Assembly (NCBI RefSeq): GCF_041379045.1
Contig: NZ_CP166871.1
Span: 2,418,001 to 2,482,000 of the forward strand
Length of the DNA stretch: 64,000 nucleotides
Direction: 5' to 3'
Source of the DNA: Thalassotalea ponticola
Lineage (GTDB): Bacteria; Pseudomonadota; Gammaproteobacteria; Enterobacterales; Alteromonadaceae
Numbering within the stretch: position 1 is the first letter of the stretch; each line of letters opens with the position of its first letter. The translations under genes were made by a program, and so were the position numbers. Positions 9,803 through 46,061 of the stretch are shown piece after piece. The notes below the pieces were generated by a model. That model worked only from the letters and a program-made list of their open reading frames with translations, ran no database searches and had not been told where the DNA came from.

Positions 9803-9824
9803 CATATTGCTTAACGAGGATATG
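9803..9824 (+). promoter_or_regulatory. ROSE-like RNA thermometer hairpin over the ibpA ribosome-binding site
   Basis: CATAT (9803-9807) pairs with ATATG (9820-9824). Inside, TTGCT (9807-9811) faces AGGA (9817-9820): U-A, U-G, an unpaired or G-G G9809, C-G, U-A, closing a UAACG loop. This is the conserved UUGCU/AGGA core of ROSE elements, which hides the Shine-Dalgarno sequence at low temperature and melts on heat shock. It is the proximal hairpin of the leader; upstream hairpins were not resolved by eye. Confidence 0.75.
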
Positions 9825-9827
9825 ATT

Positions 9828-10283
9828 ATGCGTACTTTAACTACAGATTTTAGCCCACTATACCGTTCTTTCATTGGCGCCGAGCACCTTGCGAGCCTGA
9901 TGGACCAAGCAAGCCGTTCAGAAAAACAGTCGGCTTATCCCCCGTACAACATTGAGTCTATTGCCGATGACAAATACCGCATTACTATGGCTGTTGCCGG
10001 TTTTGTCGAATCAGAACTCGATATCGAGTCGCATGAAAATTCACTAACGGTAACCGGAACCAAAACACGCAAAGAAGACGAACAACGCACCTATTTGTAT
10101 CAAGGTATCGCCGATCGTAACTTTGAGCGTAAATTTCAATTGGCAGACCACGTAAAAGTCGTCAATGCCTATATGGAAAACGGCCTACTGCACATTGAAT
10201 TAGTACGAGAAATTCCAGAAGCATTGAAGCCTAGAAAGATTGCGATTAACGGCAAAAACTTATTAGAATCAACAACCAATTAA
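9828..10283 (+). CDS. ibpA: Small heat-shock protein IbpA (Hsp20)
   Basis: Holdase chaperone of the alpha-crystallin/Hsp20 family that binds aggregating proteins. The protein (151 residues) begins MRTLTTDFSPLYRSFIGAE, aligning with E. coli IbpA; conserved stretches are YPPYNIE, VAGFVESELDI, RTYLYQGIADRNFERKFQL and IPEALKPRKIAIN. ATG 9828 is chosen because AGGA (9817-9820) is 7 bp upstream; an in-frame ATG at 9822 is too close to it and a TTG at 9807 lies in the thermometer. Expressed from a sigma-32 promoter and followed by a strong terminator. Confidence 0.95.
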   Translation: MRTLTTDFSPLYRSFIGAEHLASLMDQASRSEKQSAYPPYNIESIADDKYRITMAVAGFVESELDIESHENSLTVTGTKTRKEDEQRTYLYQGIADRNFERKFQLADHVKVVNAYMENGLLHIELVREIPEALKPRKIAINGKNLLESTTN

Positions 10284-10313
10284 GCCGTAGCAACTTCATT
10301 TATCTCCCTGTTT

Positions 10314-10338
10314 AGCCCAGCCTTTGCTGGGCTTTTTT
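10314..10338 (+). terminator. Rho-independent terminator of ibpA
   Basis: AGCCCAGC (10314-10321) pairs with GCTGGGCT (10326-10333) over a CTTT loop and is followed by a six-T run (10333-10338). The repeat array begins at the very next base. Confidence 0.92.
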
Positions 10339-10850
10339 GTACATGGATGTACTTATCCTCGCGAGCCATGGATGGTGCTAGCGTGGGTTTGTACATGGAT
10401 GGTGCTAGCGTGGGTTTGTACTTGGATAGTGTTAGCTAGCCAGTGTACTTATCCTCGCGAGCCATGGATGGTGCTAGCGTGGGTTTGTACATGGATAGTG
10501 CTAGCGAGGGTTTGTACTTGGATAGTGTTAGCTAGCCAGTGTACTTATCCTCGCGAGCCATGGATGGTGTTAGCGAGGGTTTGTACATGGATAGTGTTAG
10601 CTAGCCGATGTACTTATCCTCGCGAGCCATGGACGGTGTTAGCGAGGGTTTGTGCATGGATAGTGTTAACTAGCCGATGTACTTATCCTCGCGAGCCATG
10701 GATGGTGTTAGCGTGGGTTTGTACATGGATGTACTTATCCTCGCGTGCCACTGATGGTGCTAGCGAGGGTTTGTACTTGGATAGTGTTAGCGTGGGTTTG
10801 TACATGGAGTACTTATCCTCGCGTGCCACGGATGGTGTTAGCGTGGGTTT
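10339..10850 (+). repeat. Modular intergenic repeat array, copy 1 (512 bp)
   Basis: The whole interval can be parsed without remainder into 27-bp modules beginning GTAC. Seven carry a 15-bp insert (TTATCCTCGCGAGCC), making 42-bp units, at 10349, 10445, 10541, 10610, 10679, 10731 and 10809. Seven lack it, at 10391, 10418, 10487, 10514, 10583, 10652 and 10773. Three are truncated to 9-10 bases (10339, 10721, 10800). The core is ATGGATRGTGYTAGC; the tail is either GWGGGTTT or a TAGCC-containing variant. The units are crowded with palindromes (GTAC, CTCGCGAG, CCATGG, GCTAGC), and CCTCGC can pair with GCGAGG within a unit. Function unknown; a homologous array is at 24328. Confidence 0.95.
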
Positions 10851-10934
10851 GCAGCGCCCTATTACACTCATCGTCTTGTTTAGGTAAAATACGCTGCACC
10901 AACGGCGAGAACAACGATAAGGACAAGTCACTCA

Positions 10935-11186
10935 ATGGCTAAACCCAACAAAAAATTGCCACAAAGAACCGTCAGTGTGCAGTGTCAGCAATGCAAAGCG
11001 ATATTGTATAAATACAAAAAAGGGGGCAAAGGAAGTTTGATCAAATGCTTTAAAGAGCGCATTGTCGAAGACTTCACCGAGCAGCCAGGGGTTTGTCCCA
11101 AGTGTGTTACTCAATTTGCCCGCGAAACCTTGGTAAGAGGAACGCCCGCATTTAAAATCATTGGCAATAAGGCAATTTGTAAATAG
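10935..11186 (+). CDS. Small zinc-ribbon-like hypothetical protein
   Basis: 83 residues, basic, with two Cys pairs (VQCQQCKAI near residue 17 and GVCPKCV near residue 54) arranged like a zinc ribbon, and no membrane or signal segment. ATG at 10935 is preceded by AAGGAC about 10 bp upstream. The family was not recognised by name. It lies just right of the repeat array, and the short spacer 10851-10934 must hold its promoter (a TAAAAT word lies at 10884). It is convergent with the Atl gene on the other strand. Confidence 0.72.
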   Translation: MAKPNKKLPQRTVSVQCQQCKAILYKYKKGGKGSLIKCFKERIVEDFTEQPGVCPKCVTQFARETLVRGTPAFKIIGNKAICK

Positions 11187-24204: not shown

Positions 24205-24267
24205 ATGCCGAAACTGAGTTCAATGACCAAGGTCAACAACAAGCATTGGTGGTTTCATAACACATAG
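24205..24267 (+). CDS. trpL: trp operon leader peptide TrpL
   Basis: 20-codon frame MPKLSSMTKVNNKHWWFHNT ending in TAG at 24265, with tandem Trp codons (TGG TGG at 24247-24252). A shorter 14-codon version could start at ATG 24223; neither start has a strong ribosome site (GAGAG at 24190-24194 for the longer one). The Trp pair and the stop lie in segment 1 of a four-segment attenuator, so ribosome stalling there would favour the antiterminator. Too short for ordinary gene prediction. Confidence 0.82.
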   Translation: MPKLSSMTKVNNKHWWFHNT

Positions 24268-24327
24268 AAAGTGGGTTATGTGCGTTGTCGTATCTGTATT
24301 TTAAGCCCGCTTCTCGCGGGCTTTTTT
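24259..24327 (+). terminator. trp attenuator
   Basis: Segment 1:2 pairing: CACATA (24261-24266) with TATGTG (24277-24282). Antiterminator 2:3: GTGGGTT (24271-24277) with AAGCCCGC (24303-24310), using two G-U pairs. Terminator 3:4: AGCCCGC (24304-24310) with GCGGGCT (24316-24322), followed by six Ts (24322-24327). The alternatives are mutually exclusive as in classical Trp attenuation. Confidence 0.88.
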
Positions 24328-24501
24328 GTACATGGATGTACTTATCCTCGCGAGCCATGGGTGGTGCTAGCGTGGGTTTGTACATGGATAGTGTTAGCTA
24401 GCCGAGTACTTATCCTCGCGAGCCAAGGATGGTGCTAGCGAGGGTTTGACTGGATGTACTTATCCTCGCGAGCCATGGATGGTGCTAGCGAGGATAAGTA
24501 C
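24328..24501 (+). repeat. Modular intergenic repeat array, copy 2, inside the trp leader
   Basis: Begins at the base after the attenuator T-run with the truncated module GTACATGGAT, then a 42-bp unit (24338), a 26-bp unit (24380), a 42-bp unit (24406), an 8-base remnant (24448) and a last unit at 24456. In that last unit GTACTTATCCTCGC (24456-24469) is repeated as its exact reverse complement at 24488-24501, giving a 14-bp stem with an 18-base loop. Same family as 10339-10850; the junction with the terminator is identical at both loci. It would be transcribed in every read-through trp mRNA. Confidence 0.95.
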
Positions 24502-24734: not shown

Positions 24735-24765
24735 CTAACAACAGACTCATTTGAAAAGGCAAACC

Positions 24766-26445
24766 ATGAAGACAAAAAAGAACAACTGCGCAGCGGCTAA
24801 AACCGCGCAAACCGAACACCTTAACGAGATAAACACCGGCACATCGGCCGACACATCCTCCGTGCGTATCGTCACCCAAACACTGAGTGCTCCGTACCAA
24901 GCTGATCCGTTATCGCTTTACCAAAAGTTAACGGTTGACTCCAATCAGTCGCTATTATTGGAGTCAGCTGAAATTAGCGACAAACGCGCGTTAAAATCGA
25001 TTCTCGTTCTCGACCCCCTGTTAAAAGCGACCTGTCACGGCAACAAAGTGGTGGTAAAAGCGCTACAACAACAAAGCAACGCCGCCTTAACGCACTTAGC
25101 AGATCAATTGGCCGCAAACCCCAAATTACACATTTCCATGGATAAGCATACGCTGACTATCAGCTGTCAGACAGAGGTCGAACCTTGCGATGAAATGTCG
25201 CGCTTATTGGCTACTACGCCGCTACATGTATTACGTCAAATTCAGCAGTTGCCTCATGATGACCATCCCTTTTCACTGTTTTTAGGCGGTTGTTTTGGTT
25301 TTGATTTGATCACGGTTAGTGAAGTATTACCCGATGTTGCACAGGGCGAGAACCACTGTCCCGACTTTGTCTTTATGCTCGCCGGCTCGCTGTTGGTCAT
25401 CGATCATCAGCAACAAAGCTGTGAGTTAATAGTCAACTCAATCATAAGCGCAGACGATAAGCTTGCCGAGCGCCAACTCAAAGCACAGCTTCGCTTGGCA
25501 GAATTGCAGTTTCACTGCCAACAACATTACCCGAGTACCGAGCTCAACCTCGACCAAGATGTTAGCTACTCTGCTACTGTTGACATCAGTGATCAGCGCT
25601 TTTGTCAGCATGTCGAAACCTTAAAGCAACACATTAGAGCCGGTGACATCTTTCAGGTGGTGCCATCTCGCTGCTTTGGCCTGCCGTGTGCAAACCCGTT
25701 ACTTGCGTATCAAGCGCTAAAACAAACTAACCCAAGCCCCTATATGTTTTATTTACAGGACCGCGATTTTAGTTTGTTTGGTGCCAGTCCAGAATCGGCG
25801 TTAAAGTTTGCTAGCCAGAGCCGGCAAGTTGAGCTGTATCCCATTGCGGGAACGCGCCCTCGCGGCTTTACCTCATCCGGGGAATACTGCGCTGATCTCG
25901 ACGGCCGTATTGAGCTGGAATTGCGCTGTGACGTCAAAGAAAACGCCGAGCATTTAATGTTAGTTGACTTAGCTCGCAACGACATAGCGAGAATCTGTGA
26001 AGGCGGGAGTCGTTATGTGGCCGAGTTACTCAAAGTGGATCGATACTCTCACGTCATGCACCTAGTCTCTCGAGTGGTGGGCAAGTTGCAACCGCAACTC
26101 GACGCCTTACACGCCTATCAAGCGTGCATGAACATGGGCACTCTATCTGGCGCACCTAAAGTGATGGCCACCACGTTAATACGGCAAATAGAGGGCAAGC
26201 GAAGAGGTAGCTATGGTGGAGCCGTCGGTTATTTAACCGGACAAGGCGACATGGATACCTGTATTGTTATTCGCAGTGCCTTTGTCAGCGACAACCAAGC
26301 GATCGTTCAAGCTGGCGCAGGTGTGGTTTACGACTCTATCGCCAGTGCTGAAGCCGACGAAACCCGACAAAAAGCGCGCGCGGTCTTGCACGCCATCGCA
26401 ATCGCTAACGCAAATCAAGGTGTCCGCCAAGGAGGCTTGTCATGA
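24766..26445 (+). CDS. trpE: Anthranilate synthase component I
   Basis: 559 residues; converts chorismate plus ammonia (from TrpG) to anthranilate. The N-terminal LLLESAEISD matches the Trp feedback-inhibition site; catalytic stretches are GDIFQVVPSRCF, GASPESALKF, PIAGTRPRG, DLARNDIARI, HVMHLVSRVVG, SGAPKVMA and YGGAVGYL. ATG 24766 has AAGG 6 bp upstream; an in-frame TTG at 24751 is less likely. Its stop overlaps trpG by 4 bp. Confidence 0.96.
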   Translation: MKTKKNNCAAAKTAQTEHLNEINTGTSADTSSVRIVTQTLSAPYQADPLSLYQKLTVDSNQSLLLESAEISDKRALKSILVLDPLLKATCHGNKVVVKALQQQSNAALTHLADQLAANPKLHISMDKHTLTISCQTEVEPCDEMSRLLATTPLHVLRQIQQLPHDDHPFSLFLGGCFGFDLITVSEVLPDVAQGENHCPDFVFMLAGSLLVIDHQQQSCELIVNSIISADDKLAERQLKAQLRLAELQFHCQQHYPSTELNLDQDVSYSATVDISDQRFCQHVETLKQHIRAGDIFQVVPSRCFGLPCANPLLAYQALKQTNPSPYMFYLQDRDFSLFGASPESALKFASQSRQVELYPIAGTRPRGFTSSGEYCADLDGRIELELRCDVKENAEHLMLVDLARNDIARICEGGSRYVAELLKVDRYSHVMHLVSRVVGKLQPQLDALHAYQACMNMGTLSGAPKVMATTLIRQIEGKRRGSYGGAVGYLTGQGDMDTCIVIRSAFVSDNQAIVQAGAGVVYDSIASAEADETRQKARAVLHAIAIANANQGVRQGGLS

Positions 26446-27092
26446 GCCAGTTGTTTATTCTCGATAACCTCGATTCATTTACGTATAACCTCGTGGATGA
26501 GTTTAAGCGCTTGGGTTACGACCCGATAATTTACCGCAACACTCTGCCTGCTCAGTATATTTTTGAGGCCATGCAACAGCAAGATGACGAAGTTATCTTA
26601 GTGCTTTCACCTGGACCGGGCTCGCCCAGTGACGCTGGTTGTTTAATGGCGTTAATCGCACTTTGCCACGGTCATTACCCGATGCTAGGTATCTGTCTTG
26701 GTCATCAAGCATTAATTCAGTACTTTGGTGGCCGTATTGGTCGTGCTGGCGATGTCGTTCACGGAAAAGCGTCTTTGATAACGCATACCGAAACCGGGCC
26801 ATTTGCCCAGCTACCACAGCCACTTCATGTCGCAAGGTATCACTCATTGGTCGCCCAATCGATGCCATCAGAGTTGCAGACCTTAGCCACATACAACGAT
26901 GTAGTCATGGCTGCCGGTAGCGACAGTGAACGCGTTTTGGGTCTGCAATTTCATCCAGAATCAATATTAACGTCGAATGGCAGTCAGTTACTGGAACAAT
27001 GCTTGCACTACCTATCAACTTGTTCGATGGCGGTGGACAACACGTGCTATGGCTCAACGTCAACCACTCGGACAGCGGGTAAAAAGGGGTAA
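26442..27092 (+). CDS. trpG: Anthranilate synthase glutamine amidotransferase
   Basis: 216-residue class I glutamine amidotransferase. Catalytic Cys in GICLGHQAL, and the His/Glu pair in LGLQFHPESIL; the N-terminus is LFILDNLDSFTYNLVDEF. It is a separate gene, not fused to trpD as in E. coli. The last 25 residues extend beyond the usual domain. Overlaps trpE by 4 bp and ends 3 bp before trpD. Confidence 0.95.
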   Translation: MSQLFILDNLDSFTYNLVDEFKRLGYDPIIYRNTLPAQYIFEAMQQQDDEVILVLSPGPGSPSDAGCLMALIALCHGHYPMLGICLGHQALIQYFGGRIGRAGDVVHGKASLITHTETGPFAQLPQPLHVARYHSLVAQSMPSELQTLATYNDVVMAAGSDSERVLGLQFHPESILTSNGSQLLEQCLHYLSTCSMAVDNTCYGSTSTTRTAGKKG

Positions 27093-27095
27093 GAG

Positions 27096-28094
27096 ATGTT
27101 ATCACAATTAATAAACGGCGACAGTTTAAGCCAACAACAAAGTGAACAATTCTTCAGCGACGTTATCAGTGGGCAAGTGGAGCCCGCCTTGTTAAGTGCG
27201 GTACTCACTGCGCTGGCGATCAAAGGCGAGACGCCAGAAGAAATAGCTGGTGCGGCGTTGGCAATAAGAGCAGCAGCCAAACCCTTTGTAGCTAATCAAC
27301 GTAAACTGGTTGACTGTGTCGGTACCGGCGGTGATGGCCACAACACCATTAATATATCAACCACGGCAGCGATTGTTGCCGGTGCGTGTGGTTTACCCGT
27401 TGCCAAGCACGGCAACCGCAGTGTTTCAAGTAAATCTGGCTCCGCCGATTTATTAGAGACGCTGGGAGTAAAATTGGATATGAGTGCGGCCACGGCCTAT
27501 CAATGCATTGAGCAAGCCGGAACCTGTTTTTTGTATGCGCCTCATTATCACGCGGGCTTTAAACACGCCGCTAAGGTGCGCTCTGCTCTGGGTGTTAGAA
27601 CACTGTTTAATATCCTCGGACCTTTAGTTAACCCCGCTGCGCCAAAAATCATGCTACTTGGCGTATACGATAGCCGCTTATTGATGCCGATGGCCAAAGC
27701 GTTGCAACTTACCGGAGTTGAACGAGCTTGGGTAGTTTACGGCTCTGGACTCGATGAAATAGCCATACATGGTCCAACACAGGTCATCGACATAACACCA
27801 CAGTCATTGCGAGAACTGACTATTACGCCAGAGGATTTTGCTATTCCATATCACCCGCTCGCCAGTATCAAAGGCGGTAGTGCGACTGAAAATGCTCAGT
27901 TCAGTTTAAATGTCATCAACGGCTGCGGCCAACTTGCGCATCATCACGCGGTGGTGATCAATACTGCTGCTCTTTTGTATTTAGCCGGCCAAACCGATAA
28001 CCTAGCCCAAGCAAGCGACATTGTACAACAGGCGATTGCACAGGGCTTGGCGGCCAATACCTTAGCAACACTGGTCGAGGTAAGTCATGGCTAA
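27096..28094 (+). CDS. trpD: Anthranilate phosphoribosyltransferase
   Basis: 332 residues; transfers phosphoribose from PRPP to anthranilate. PRPP/anthranilate motifs: VGTGGDGHNTINISTTAA, KHGNRSVSSKSGSADLLE and HYHAGFKHAAKVRSALGVRT. AAAGGGG lies just before the ATG. Its end overlaps trpCF by 8 bp. Confidence 0.96.
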   Translation: MLSQLINGDSLSQQQSEQFFSDVISGQVEPALLSAVLTALAIKGETPEEIAGAALAIRAAAKPFVANQRKLVDCVGTGGDGHNTINISTTAAIVAGACGLPVAKHGNRSVSSKSGSADLLETLGVKLDMSAATAYQCIEQAGTCFLYAPHYHAGFKHAAKVRSALGVRTLFNILGPLVNPAAPKIMLLGVYDSRLLMPMAKALQLTGVERAWVVYGSGLDEIAIHGPTQVIDITPQSLRELTITPEDFAIPYHPLASIKGGSATENAQFSLNVINGCGQLAHHHAVVINTAALLYLAGQTDNLAQASDIVQQAIAQGLAANTLATLVEVSHG

Positions 28095-29481
28095 TATTTT
28101 ACAAAACATTATTGCCCACAAGCGCGTAGAAATTGACCAACTAAAACAACGCCAACCATTGGCCTCGCTGCTCGACTCGATTACCCCGACAACGCGCGAT
28201 ATGTATGCGGTGCTAGCACAGCCGGGTTGCCACTTTATTTTAGAGTGTAAAAAAGCGTCGCCGTCAAAAGGGCTAATTCGCGCCGACTTTAACCCTCAGG
28301 CAATTGCACGTGTTTATGACAAATACGCCAGCGCCATTTCGGTATTAACCGAACAACGTTTTTTTCAAGGAAGTTTTCAGTACCTTCGTCAAGTGCGGCA
28401 AGTTGTCGACTGCCCAATTCTCAACAAAGATTTTTTCATCGATGCCTATCAAGTACACTTGGCCCGTTATCACGGCGCAGATGCCATCCTGTTAATGTTA
28501 AGTGTGTTAACCGATGAACAGTACTGTGCTTTGGCCAAGGTGGCCGAAGACTACAATATGGCAATTCTCACCGAAGTTTCTACCGTTGCTGAAACCGAGC
28601 GGGCAATCGCCCTTGGCGCGCGCCTTATCGGTATTAACAATCGCAATTTAAGGGACTTAACAACCGATACCACGCGCACTTTTGACTTGGCGTCACTGAT
28701 CCCGAGTGACCGGATGATCATTTCTGAATCGGGCATAAATGACAATAAACAACTTCGAGCTTTAGCCTCCGTCGCCAACGGCTTTCTCATTGGCAGCTCA
28801 CTTATGGCCCAAAACGACATTGACTTCGCCTGTCGCCAATTGATTTATGGCGATCACAAAGTCTGCGGTATGACCCGCAGTGAGGATATCGTTCATGCCA
28901 TAGGCGCAGGCGCAACCAGTGTTGGTATGATCTTTGTCGATTCATCGCCGCGTTGCATCAGTTTACAAAAAGCTCAACAACTACAAGCTGAGGTGGCGTT
29001 TCAGTGCGATCATCAGGTGCGCTATATTGCGGTATTTAAAGATCATAGTATTGACGTCGTGGTTGAGCATTGTCAGCTACTAAACTTGTGGGCTGTACAA
29101 CTTCACGGTCGTGAAGACCAACACTATATCGCCCAGTTACGCCAACAGTTAGCCAGTAAAATCAAGATCATCAAAGCGTTGGCTGTTGACGCGTGCATAC
29201 CGCAAGCCGTTGTCGGTAGTGATATGTATTTATTGGACAACAAGCAACCTGGTTCTGGGCAAGCGTTTGACTGGTCGCTAACACACCACATCCAACAGCT
29301 AAATGCACCGGTTATGCTCGCCGGTGGCATTGACAGCCATAATGTCAAAGATGCGATTGCCCTGCTGTTGCAAACCGATATGCTTGGCCTCGATATAAAC
29401 TCTGGTGTCGAACTCTGTGCTGGGGTAAAAGACAAACACAAACTACAACAATTGTTTACTTTGCTAAGACAATATAACTAG
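28087..29481 (+). CDS. trpCF: Bifunctional indole-3-glycerol-phosphate synthase / phosphoribosylanthranilate isomerase
   Basis: 464-residue fusion of two TIM barrels, as in enterobacteria. IGPS part (about 1-255): ILECKKASPSKGLIR, DFFIDAYQV, GINNRNLRDL, ISESGI. PRAI part (about 257-464): HKVCGMTRSEDI with catalytic Cys, VGMIFVDSSPRC, VQLHGRED, LAGGID and LDINSGVE. Catalyses the two steps between phosphoribosylanthranilate and indole-glycerol phosphate. Confidence 0.96.
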   Translation: MANILQNIIAHKRVEIDQLKQRQPLASLLDSITPTTRDMYAVLAQPGCHFILECKKASPSKGLIRADFNPQAIARVYDKYASAISVLTEQRFFQGSFQYLRQVRQVVDCPILNKDFFIDAYQVHLARYHGADAILLMLSVLTDEQYCALAKVAEDYNMAILTEVSTVAETERAIALGARLIGINNRNLRDLTTDTTRTFDLASLIPSDRMIISESGINDNKQLRALASVANGFLIGSSLMAQNDIDFACRQLIYGDHKVCGMTRSEDIVHAIGAGATSVGMIFVDSSPRCISLQKAQQLQAEVAFQCDHQVRYIAVFKDHSIDVVVEHCQLLNLWAVQLHGREDQHYIAQLRQQLASKIKIIKALAVDACIPQAVVGSDMYLLDNKQPGSGQAFDWSLTHHIQQLNAPVMLAGGIDSHNVKDAIALLLQTDMLGLDINSGVELCAGVKDKHKLQQLFTLLRQYN

Positions 29482-29490
29482 GTGATATTG

Positions 29491-30711
29491 ATGAATGACT
29501 TAGACCATAACCACGCTCAACACAGTGCCTATTTTGGCGAATTTGGCGGTATGTATGTTAGCGAGCTTCTCGTCCCTGCACTTGAGCAACTCGAACAAGC
29601 CTTCATTGACAGCCAAGGTGATGACCAGTTCCAACACCAATTAAACGAACTGCTGGAAAAATTTGCCGGTCGGCCCACACCACTAACCTTGTGCCGCAAC
29701 CTGCACAACAACGATCGGGTTAAGCTGTATCTCAAACGAGAAGATTTATTGCACGGTGGTGCCCACAAAACCAACCAAGTGTTAGGTCAAGCCCTATTGG
29801 CAAAACGCATGGGTAAAACCGAAATAATCGCTGAAACGGGTGCCGGTCAACACGGTGTTGCTACTGCAATTGCCTGTTCGCTATTGGGTTTAAAGTGCCG
29901 CGTATACATGGGCAAAGTTGATTGCGACCGCCAACAGCCCAACGTATTTCGCATGAAATTGATGGGGGCTGAAGTGATCCCAGTAACCGCCGGCTCAGGC
30001 ACCTTAAAAGACGCGGTTAACGAGGCGTTGAGAGATTGGTCGGCAAACTATCAAAACGCCCATTACCTGCTCGGTACGGCAGCCGGACCACACCCATTTC
30101 CCACCATCGTGCGCGAGTTTCAAAAAGTGATCGGTATCGAAGCTAAACAACAAATTATCGAAGAGCAAGGACGCTTACCTGACTATGTGGTTGCCTGTGT
30201 CGGCGGAGGCTCTAATGCCATCGGTATGTTTAATGATTTCATCCCGCACGAAGAGGTAAAACTGATCGGCGTTGAAGCCGGCGGTAAAGGCATCGACTCG
30301 GGTGAGCACGGCGCCACCTTAGTGGCGGGAACGAAGGGCATGTTACACGGTGCGTATACCTACATTATGCAAGATAACGATGGTCAAATTGAAGAGTCCT
30401 ACTCGATTTCCGCGGGGTTAGATTACCCTGCGGTGGGCCCCCAACACGCGATGTTAAAAGACAGTAAACGCGCGCAGTACGTCGCGATTAATGACGAACA
30501 AGCGTTAGCCGCGTTTAAGGCACTGTCGCGTTCGGAAGGTATTATCCCTGCATTAGAGTCATCACATGCAATTGCCTATGCATTACAATTGGCCAACCAG
30601 GCAACCGAAGATACGGTGATCCTTGTCAACTTGTCTGGTCGAGGCGATAAAGACTTAGCGCATGTGATGAGCATTATAGGTGACAATAACGAGCAGGAGG
30701 CAGGACAATGA
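29491..30711 (+). CDS. trpB: Tryptophan synthase beta chain
   Basis: 406 residues; PLP enzyme condensing indole and serine. PLP lysine in [13 protein letters not shown], phosphate-binding loop [12 protein letters not shown], and the N-terminal [21 protein letters not shown] at 29491 follows AGGTGA by 5 bp; an in-frame GTG at 29482 falls inside that ribosome site. Overlaps trpA by 4 bp. Confidence 0.97.
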
Positions 30712-31544
30712 CACAACCGCATAAATTGGGGTATCGCTACCGCGAATTATTTGCCCAGCTTGAGCAAAAACGACAAGGTGCCTTTATTCCTTTTGTCACC
30801 ATTGGCGACCCGAACAAAGAGCAATCGATTGAAATCATTAAAACGCTGATCGATAACGGTGCCGATGCATTGGAGTTAGGCATCCCCTACTCCGATCCAA
30901 GTGCCGATGGCTTGACTATACAACGCGCCACATCCAGAGCCCTTACCGCCAATGTTAATACCGATGTTTGCCTAGACATATTAGCCACTATTCGACGTTA
31001 CAACGCCGATATCCCCATTGGTTTATTACTGTATGCCAACATTGTCTTTGCTCGTGGTATTGATAGATTTTATCAACAAGTCAATGCCGCAGGTGTTGAC
31101 TCGGTGCTGATTGCCGATGTGCCAATGCGCGAAGCTGCGCGCTTTAAACAGGCTGCCGAGCGCCATGGTATTGCGCCAATATTTATTGCCCCGCCAAATG
31201 CCAGTGAACACACCTTAAAGCAAGTTGCGGCGCAAAGCGTCGGTTATACCTATGTGCTGGCTCGAGCCGGTGTTACGGGAACCAACGTAGAGGCCGAGCA
31301 ATGCTCGAGTAGTCTGTTATCAGCGCTGGCTGAGTTATCCGCTGCGCCACCGGTGCTTGGATTTGGGATCTCATCGCCAACACAGGTGCAAAACGCTATC
31401 GCATCTGGTGCTCGCGGTGCGATATCAGGCAGTGCGGTGGTCAATATCATTGCTGATAACCTCGATAATCAGCAACTGATGTTAAGCAAATTGGCTGACT
31501 TTACCAAGGCGATGAAACAAGCCACCGACATATCGGCGATGTAA
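30708..31544 (+). CDS. trpA: Tryptophan synthase alpha chain
   Basis: 278-residue TIM barrel that cleaves indole-3-glycerol phosphate. Catalytic Glu in [15 protein letters not shown], and the phosphate-binding [10 protein letters not shown] and GAISGSAVV. Begins [30 protein letters not shown]. Last gene of the trp operon; a terminator follows 30 bp downstream. Confidence 0.97.
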
Positions 31545-45658: not shown

Positions 45659-45952
45659 ACCGTGGTTAACTTAGTGTTATTATAAAATTGCCTCAGAGTA
45701 AAATAATTACCCGATAACTGCAATGCCGACGAGAAATTTTAGCCGATGCTCTGCTTTAAGGTGCTAGAGTGGTGAAAAAGGCATTTACTTATAAAGCAAG
45801 CTAAAACCACAGTGACAATCAAAAAACAGCACTTGTACTGAGCTATTGAACGGCAAAGACTAAAACACCAACAACTGCGTCTGGCTAAATTGATTTACAA
45901 CGTGAAGATTTACAAACTGAAGATTTTAAAGAGTAAGAAAGGTGATGATTGG
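45659..45952. other. Intergenic region between the sulfotransferase gene and ffs
   Basis: About 294 bp, AT-rich. It should contain the sulfotransferase promoter (minus strand). No reading frame or structured element could be supported. Confidence 0.45.
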
Positions 45953-46061
45953 GTGGCCCCTCTCAGCCTCATCCCGGCACATGAGTCGTCTGCTACGGTT
46001 GCTTCCTTCCGGACCTGGCCGGGTTAACAGAGTATCATTGCGGGAGGACCAAGAGGTGCCA
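45953..46061 (-). ncRNA. ffs: 4.5S RNA (signal recognition particle RNA, small bacterial type)
   Basis: On the minus strand the transcript contains CAGGTCCGGAAGGAAGCA, the universally conserved SRP domain IV apical loop bound by Ffh, flanked by paired arms: the 5' GGCACCTCT pairs with the 3' AGAGGGGCC. About 108 nt, matching E. coli 4.5S RNA in length and in the TCCTCCCGCAA and GTGCCGGGATG segments. Ends approximate to a few bases. Confidence 0.96.

Follow-up and report, generated by a model that had tools for sequence, protein, structure and literature searches.

The window, i.e. the whole 64,000-nt stretch of Thalassotalea ponticola DNA analysed here, carries two arrays of short repeats, each of which begins on the base following the T-run of a terminator (positions 10339 and 24328). 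The first array lies behind a gene for a small heat-shock protein and the second within the leader region of the trp operon, with the following features:

9807..10283, + strand: Hsp20/alpha-crystallin gene (IbpA-like), an open reading frame with a Pfam HSP20 match (4e-20), whose terminator precedes array 1
10314..10338, + strand: intrinsic terminator of hsp20, an 8-pair hairpin (stem 10314-10333) with Ts to 10338
10339..10850, + strand: repeat array 1, comprising 7 x 42 nt, 7 x 27 nt and 3 stubs, with 16 GGA motifs
10349, 10445, 10541, 10610, 10679, 10731 and 10809, + strand: starts of the 42-mers of array 1
10391, 10418, 10487, 10514, 10583, 10652 and 10773, + strand: starts of the 27-mers of array 1
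10339 (10 nt), 10721 (10 nt) and 10800 (9 nt), + strand: stubs of array 1
24205..24267, + strand: trp leader peptide MPKLSSMTKVNNKHWWFHNT, with two adjacent Trp codons
24303..24327, + strand: trp attenuator terminator, an 8-pair hairpin (stem 24303-24323) with Ts to 24327
24328..24496, + strand: array 2, three modelled units between the trp attenuator and trpE
24751..31544, + strand: trp operon (trpE, trpG, trpD, trpCF, trpB and trpA), open reading frames with profile matches

The product of the 9807..10283 gene scores 172 bits against the NCBIfam IbpA model, below the model's cut-off of 212. A consensus scan around array 1 identified the terminator upstream and no terminator downstream on the + strand, while no promoter-like site of the consensus type was found between the hsp20 terminator and the array or inside the array. 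A further 84 bases separate the array from a small gene starting at 10935, for which only a weak zinc-ribbon match, under the cut-off, was obtained. By the known logic of attenuation, array 2 would be transcribed at tryptophan shortage. The trp leader and attenuator look intact, and a sub-threshold Rfam Trp_leader match is found there (27.2 of 41 bits).

Anatomy and structure of the repeat unit

The first-pass annotation had divided the 512 nt of array 1 into seven 42-mers, seven 27-mers and three stubs with no leftover, and recomputation of this split reproduced it exactly (sum 512; zero residue). TRF returned a period of 96 (42+27+27; 96% matches, score 473) and one of 69 (42+27; 93% matches), indicating that blocks of modules were duplicated. 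The growth by module duplication that had been proposed on first inspection agrees both with these periods and with the arrays of relatives, which contain from 1 to 12 modelled units. The accompanying description, a 27-bp unit with an optional block, is correct as to the modularity of the array but not as to its basic unit, since relatives carry a stub plus 42-mer of 52 nt. Judged by this sequence comparison, the natural unit is 52 nt in length and comprises two hairpins, both with ANGGAN loops. Full units elsewhere, of ~52 nt, consist of hairpin A (RTAC-ANGGAN-GTAY), a TTAT spacer, hairpin B and GGGTTT or a similar ending, and the aligned units of relatives start with RTAC or GCAC. In array 1, hairpin B has the outer stem CCTCGC/GCG(A/T)GG, the inner stem GCC/GGT and an ANGGAN cap, and two full units can be distinguished:

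10339..10390, + strand: full 52-nt unit, with hairpin A GTAC-ATGGAT-GTAC, TTAT, hairpin B with inner loop ATGGAT, and GGGTTT
10721..10772, + strand: second full 52-nt unit, with a hairpin B without GGA, CACTGATG

The 27-mer looks like a deletion product, probably a unit minus the 25 nt that separate its two copies of ATGGAT; the lone 42-mer may be a unit without its first GTACATGGAT.

The hairpin potential ascribed to the array at first pass is evident on folding, with the region 10305-10850 (terminator included) reaching -245.3 kcal/mol against -190.6 +/- 6.0 kcal/mol for its own shuffles (z -9.1; 0/100), while two single units of the window, folded alone, are no better than their shuffles (z -1.2 and -0.8). 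Local folding of array 1 gives its GGA motifs an accessibility of 0.59, compared with 0.25 for all positions, the highest among trinucleotides occurring at least 10 times; the shuffle control gives 0.26 +/- 0.09 for GGA (0/100 as high). The two alternative tails of the units, which had been called interchangeable, do exist, but their predicted structures differ: the GGA of the four 27-mers with a TAGCC tail (10418, 10514, 10583 and 10652) is mostly paired (predicted unpaired probability 0.14-0.22), and the remaining twelve GGA of the array have a predicted unpaired probability of 0.59-0.85. Units with a TAGCC tail are thereby predicted to hide their own GGA. Successive GGA motifs of array 1 are spaced by 24-27, 42 or 52 nt (overall 24-52 nt).

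Two covariance models, R1 (12 units) and the broader R2 (36 units), were used to search for further copies, and 150 of 155 matches, grouped into 97 arrays, form alignment A3. In this alignment (134 distinct units), which is fitted to the structure, 94.2% of the cells are paired, 15/16 pairs are changed on both sides and 0/500 shuffles reach any of five covariation measures. In an unfitted alignment of 12 units (A2), 96.9% are paired and 6/16 pairs are changed on both sides, although one of the five measures, further pair types, is ordinary (116/500 shuffles as high). G-U cells number 186 and A-C cells 45, with 113 of the 186 belonging to one consensus pair. The GGA columns of the loops are kept at 88-97% across the 150 units, most aligned units have AUGGAU in both hairpins, and hairpin A shows the invariants A-C-A-.-G-G-A-.-G-T in 23 units. 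As R1 and R2 both contain GGA, its presence in their matches is partly circular. A model-free census of loops outside the modelled units, less biased in this respect, places ANGGAN as the top class on 4-pair stems (79, against 41 for the next), but only in a tie with two other classes on 5-pair stems (16 each). In a census of loci outside the window whose elements all lie on one strand, ANGGAN-capped hairpins outside the modelled units are found in 81/1124 cases at up to 400 nt from an array and in 6/1693 further off. These 81 hairpins have 27 different 4-nt stems, and 53 of them lie on the strand of the element.

Distribution and genomic context

The source genome (3.35 Mb, one contig) contains 16 units by model: the two arrays account for ten, and the other six are single copies in rRNA operons. 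Of 18 stretches matched when named genomes were scanned with a pattern, 15 are labelled Thalassotalea. With R1 (E<=0.01) the element is found in 13/15 same-genus genomes and in 21/97 relatives, at 0 to 44 copies per genome. With R2 (E<=0.001) it is found in 46/369 sampled genomes of the class, representing 38/272 genera; two of the 46 belong to its own family, and ~0.4 false genomes are expected provided that the roughly calibrated E-values hold. Copy numbers in the class are lower bounds, as 15 candidates were scored per genome. Restriction to two loci, which the first-pass annotation had linked to a one-off duplication, is thus nearly the case in the source genome, where only the six rRNA-operon copies are added to the two arrays, but is contradicted by the relatives.

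Among 28 loci of the class, GGA is present in hairpin A of 27 and in hairpin B of all 28, a partly circular result given that R2 favours GGA; these loci include L285, L288 and L291, the sites of L266, L270 and L276, which had been used for building R2. Their stems differ from those of the source genome, being commonly GTCGC/GCGAC or GCCGC/GCGGC, and the loop of hairpin B is CAGGATG in 5/28. A separate pattern search of the class matched 14/369 genomes (4 in the backwards control). Of 14 loci from this search, three have both hairpins (L276, L266 and L270), four have a hairpin A whose continuation is cut or altered (L264, L267, L281 and L268, the last in the own family) and seven are unrelated. 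Matches of 19 nt to array 1 were also observed (L027-L031): for four rRNA-operon copies such a match lies ~3.3 kb away, and two other places have one as well.

Once the five arrays in rRNA operons are set aside, 60 of the remaining 92 arrays lie directly behind a terminator-like hairpin plus T-run, as compared with 246/35,230 control positions in non-ORF DNA of the same loci. Where fewer than four Ts stand in front (26 arrays), the preceding feature is in many cases, by eye, a further GGA-loop hairpin whose stem differs. Among the 70 arrays behind four or more Ts, some of which are in rRNA operons, a crude frame finder, also used for the class copies, places the nearest upstream frame on the same strand in 56, with 30 arrays between same-strand genes and 24 between a same-strand and a convergent gene. 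In genome G005, one element lies directly behind the terminator of a CsrB-like GGA-rich stretch (L155, about 1010-1314; by eye).

The hsp20 terminator was inspected by eye in 14 genomes. In five (G000, G005, G006, G008 and G010) an array of GGA hairpins starts at most about 3 nt from the T-run, in G011 an IS110-type gene occupies the site with one unit beyond it, and in eight the site is empty. The filled sites have stems unlike each other and loops that are all of the ANGGAN or AGGAU kind (by eye), suggesting that the loop is retained to a greater degree than the stem.

In the rRNA operons, the copies stand behind TTTT of the antisense strand, with no terminator. They occupy the 23S-5S spacer and run antisense to the rRNA, whose precursor thus carries AUCCAU loops. 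Both loops nevertheless keep GGA in such copies from three genera:

L022, 361-411: single copy in the 23S-5S rRNA spacer, antisense to the rRNA
L212, 1217-1267: single copy in the 23S-5S rRNA spacer, antisense to the rRNA
L213, 1211-1261: single copy in the 23S-5S rRNA spacer, antisense to the rRNA

Across the class, 4/11 intergenic copies are antisense to both neighbours and 17/28 copies overlap an open frame, many such frames being perhaps spurious in GC-rich genomes.

Relation to known RNA and DNA elements

The first-pass annotation had not recognised the array as a named repeat family, and Rfam at gathering score concurs: over the window only SRP RNA is found, with no family at the arrays, and over 20 class loci one tRNA is found, with none at the element. 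Weak Rfam hits around array 1 fall mostly on the terminator and were discarded, as were sub-threshold Leu_leader hits beside elements at L046 and L052, which are probably ordinary terminators; the array at the L046 site (L128) lies 46 nt beyond the end of a same-strand gene, and at L052 the distance from the end of a 471-codon frame to the array is 77 nt. BLAST of array 1 against phages and plasmids returned no match, nor did a search of viral contigs with one exact pattern. Within the scope of literature text searches and Rfam scans, the family was not found in print. The text search gave no match for GTACATGGATGTAC or for CsrA combined with repetitive extragenic palindromic, hairpin and GGA, several unrelated matches for CANGGANG (mangrove or waste papers) and, among the matches listed for CAUGGAUG, none that by title concerns bacterial repeats.

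By the tests made here, the element is no member of TwoAYGGAY, CsrB or RAYT-REP. It resembles TwoAYGGAY (RF01731) in having AYGGAY loops on two hairpins, and the Rfam consensus loops CAUGGAUG and GCCAUGGAUGGC are practically those of the element. The match, at 10661-10793, reaches however only 17.8 bits against a gathering score of 43 (E 9.2), and no match at E<=1 was obtained in 20 related loci. The TwoAYGGAY model has a long outer stem enclosing both hairpins, which is absent from the 52-nt unit and from its covariation, and the element, unlike TwoAYGGAY, is tandem, dispersed and post-terminator. The excerpted part of PMC4333381 describes CsrA binding by TwoAYGGAY as predicted, not proven, and that of PMC2864571 lists the motif for human gut, gamma-Proteobacteria and Clostridiales.

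A second likeness, that of many GGA-loop hairpins per RNA at bridging distances, is to CsrB, CsrC, RsmY and RsmZ. These are free sRNAs with their own promoter and terminator, whereas array 1 has a terminator before it and no promoter-like site of the consensus type was found inside. The CsrB model RF00018 (gathering score 71 bits) has no match at E<=0.01 in the source genome and exceeds its cut-off in 0/15 same-genus genomes, with weak matches in six. By eye, five intergenic stretches (L229, L232, L233, L235 and L236) are GGA-rich in the manner of CsrB-type sRNAs while remaining under the RF00018 cut-off, and the only Y1 transposase gene of the source genome is preceded by a GGA-rich stretch with short hairpins (L073, about 1090-1330) that is possibly a CsrB-type RNA. 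Other tandem GGA-hairpin arrays, with unrelated stems and periods of about 55 and 48 nt, were observed at L230 (1499-1730; G012) and L231 (1474-1800; G009), respectively. The Pf1-Pf3 Csr sRNAs of Pseudoalteromonas fuliginea, a marine relative, are likewise GGA-rich intergenic CsrA antagonists, but differ from the element in that the sections of PMC11882849 used here describe them as promoter-driven sRNAs with 25, 21 and 9 GGA motifs and a terminator at the end. These sections also report their expression in laboratory E. coli K-12 with iodine staining for glycogen.

As short, dispersed, extragenic palindromes that are multi-copy and cluster in arrays, the units recall REP/RAYT systems, though 17 of the 28 class copies overlap an open frame. 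REP elements begin with a 5' GTAG/GGAG tetranucleotide; the element, by contrast, starts with RTAC or GCAC and its units stand head to tail. Nor were copies found to flank Y1 transposase genes: of the genus's 22 Y1 transposase places, 10 were searched with R2, none giving a match at E<=0.01 (best E 0.031), and a RAYT is thus no evident mover. In G002, however, the distance between one element and a sub-cut-off Y1 match is ~1.4 kb. The proximity of Y1 transposase genes to GGA-rich RNAs was dropped as a lead, since those stretches look CsrB-type by eye and no R2 match was found beside the ten places.

Candidate roles of the element

The analysis delineates a real, dispersed family of two-hairpin elements that is widespread in the class, with two candidate roles, that of a CsrA decoy under certain conditions and that of an element acting at the level of DNA. 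The interpretation first given to the array is thereby supported in part, with unit size, terminator adjacency and the CsrA-type ANGGAN loops departing from it.

We propose, at a probability of slightly under one half, that the array is a tandem copy of a REP-like dispersed element made of CsrA-type sites, and that it acts as a CsrA decoy once the terminator has been passed. The 52-nt element, dispersed among many Gammaproteobacteria, would have grown in tandem here, each unit giving two hairpins whose ANGGAN loops have the form of a high-affinity CsrA/RsmA site. Copies in the genus mostly lie directly behind intrinsic-terminator T-runs, on the strand that would give GGA in the RNA. Polymerase passing the terminator, through read-through behind hsp20 or antitermination behind the trp attenuator, would produce an RNA with a string of GGA hairpins, and these, 24-52 nt apart, may be bridged by a CsrA dimer, with the result that CsrA would be titrated or the RNA held by CsrA.

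The sections of PMC7652899 used here report a CsrA SELEX ligand, RUACARGGAUGU, with ACA and GGA always kept, hexaloops in 44/55 loops and four or fewer pairs in most stems; the same sections give CAGGA(U/A/C)G as the CsrB repeat and 10-63 nt as the distance over which CsrA bridges sites. A CsrA/RsmA site consensus of (A/U)CANGGANG(U/A) is given in the excerpts of PMC6692469 and PMC6849547. The element carries ACANGGANGU in the hexaloop of a short hairpin, as in the consensus excerpted, and the hairpin A invariants equal the letters of the SELEX ligand, while the CAGGATG loops of hairpin B in 5/28 class loci equal the CsrB repeat quoted in those sections, all of which argues for CsrA sites. The GGA spacing likewise falls within the bridging range those sections report, in favour of a decoy. 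Further support comes from the covarying stems, the kept loop GGA, the ANGGAN-capped hairpins near arrays, the accessibility of GGA, the position behind terminators (the trp attenuator among them) and the arrays with unlike stems at the hsp20 terminator. A csrA gene is present in 14/15 same-genus genomes, including 13/13 near-complete ones. The source genome has three csrA-type genes (L248, L310 and L311), all keeping MLIL and SVHR.EI; the other genomes of the genus have one or two, with none found in the 78% complete G003. Against a decoy stand the facts that polymerase stopping at the T-run never makes the array, that no promoter-like site of the consensus type is found there, that GGA is kept in the antisense rRNA-spacer copies, that 4/11 intergenic class copies are antisense to both neighbours and 17/28 class copies overlap an open frame, and that the genus already has CsrB-like RNAs (by eye), to which a sponge would be additional.

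A wider role, in which the copies together form a distributed, genome-wide CsrA sponge gated by termination, seems unlikely to us. Many terminators and one or more amino-acid attenuators would then have CsrA sites strung out past their stop point, with lost termination (starvation, heat shock, antitermination) summed into CsrA titration by way of a self-spreading repeat.

A purely DNA-level, REP/MITE-like element is a strong rival explanation, to which we give a somewhat lower probability than to the decoy. Its hairpins would be the single-stranded DNA sites of a mobilising enzyme that targets T-runs behind hairpins, with GGA as the signature of the enzyme and CsrA irrelevant. With GGGTTT behind it, hairpin B has the look of a terminator, so that a unit would itself offer the enzyme a target; the tandem growth would follow from this. 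Such spread as DNA is favoured by the antisense rRNA copies, which lie behind antisense TTTT with no terminator, by the class copies that are antisense or within frames, and by the lack of a consensus promoter-like site at array 1. The start of the element at the very end of T-runs, its mixed orientation outside the family, the dispersal of copies (0 to 44 among 97 relatives) and their presence or absence at the hsp20 terminator also fit. The same loop on neighbouring hairpins with 27 different stems would, however, be odd for an enzyme reading stems, the ten Y1 transposase places searched offer no evident mover, as noted above, and the empty hsp20 sites are too diverged for a target duplication to be read.

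Should the RNA of the CsrA decoy be made and bound, terminator read-through and attenuation would become inputs to the Csr network. Should it not be made or bound, the family would illustrate how a palindrome that spreads as DNA comes to resemble an RNA motif recognised by a protein. In its habits the family is like REP elements, and its hairpins have the consensus ligand of CsrA, a global RNA-binding regulator.

An improbable alternative is a structural 3' element without a specific protein, serving as a back-up barrier, a stabiliser of read-through RNA or an insulator between convergent genes. While the position behind terminators, the strong folding of the whole array and the 24/70 arrays between a same-strand and a convergent gene would suit such an element, the kept ANGGAN loops are left unexplained, 30/70 arrays lie between same-strand genes and a terminator already precedes the array. 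A one-off local duplication, contradicted by dispersal in relatives and by stem covariation, or a coding repeat (42 and 27 being multiples of three, with a 187-codon open frame at 10324-10887 spanning array 1) is highly improbable, and the latter was rejected because the frame starts on a TTG inside the hsp20 terminator, its product is without a Pfam match and the full unit of 52 nt is no multiple of three.

A tandem repeat of a different kind, with a 15-bp period, is found elsewhere in the window (45892-45926 and 45958-46054), where it immediately precedes the small SRP RNA gene on the - strand.
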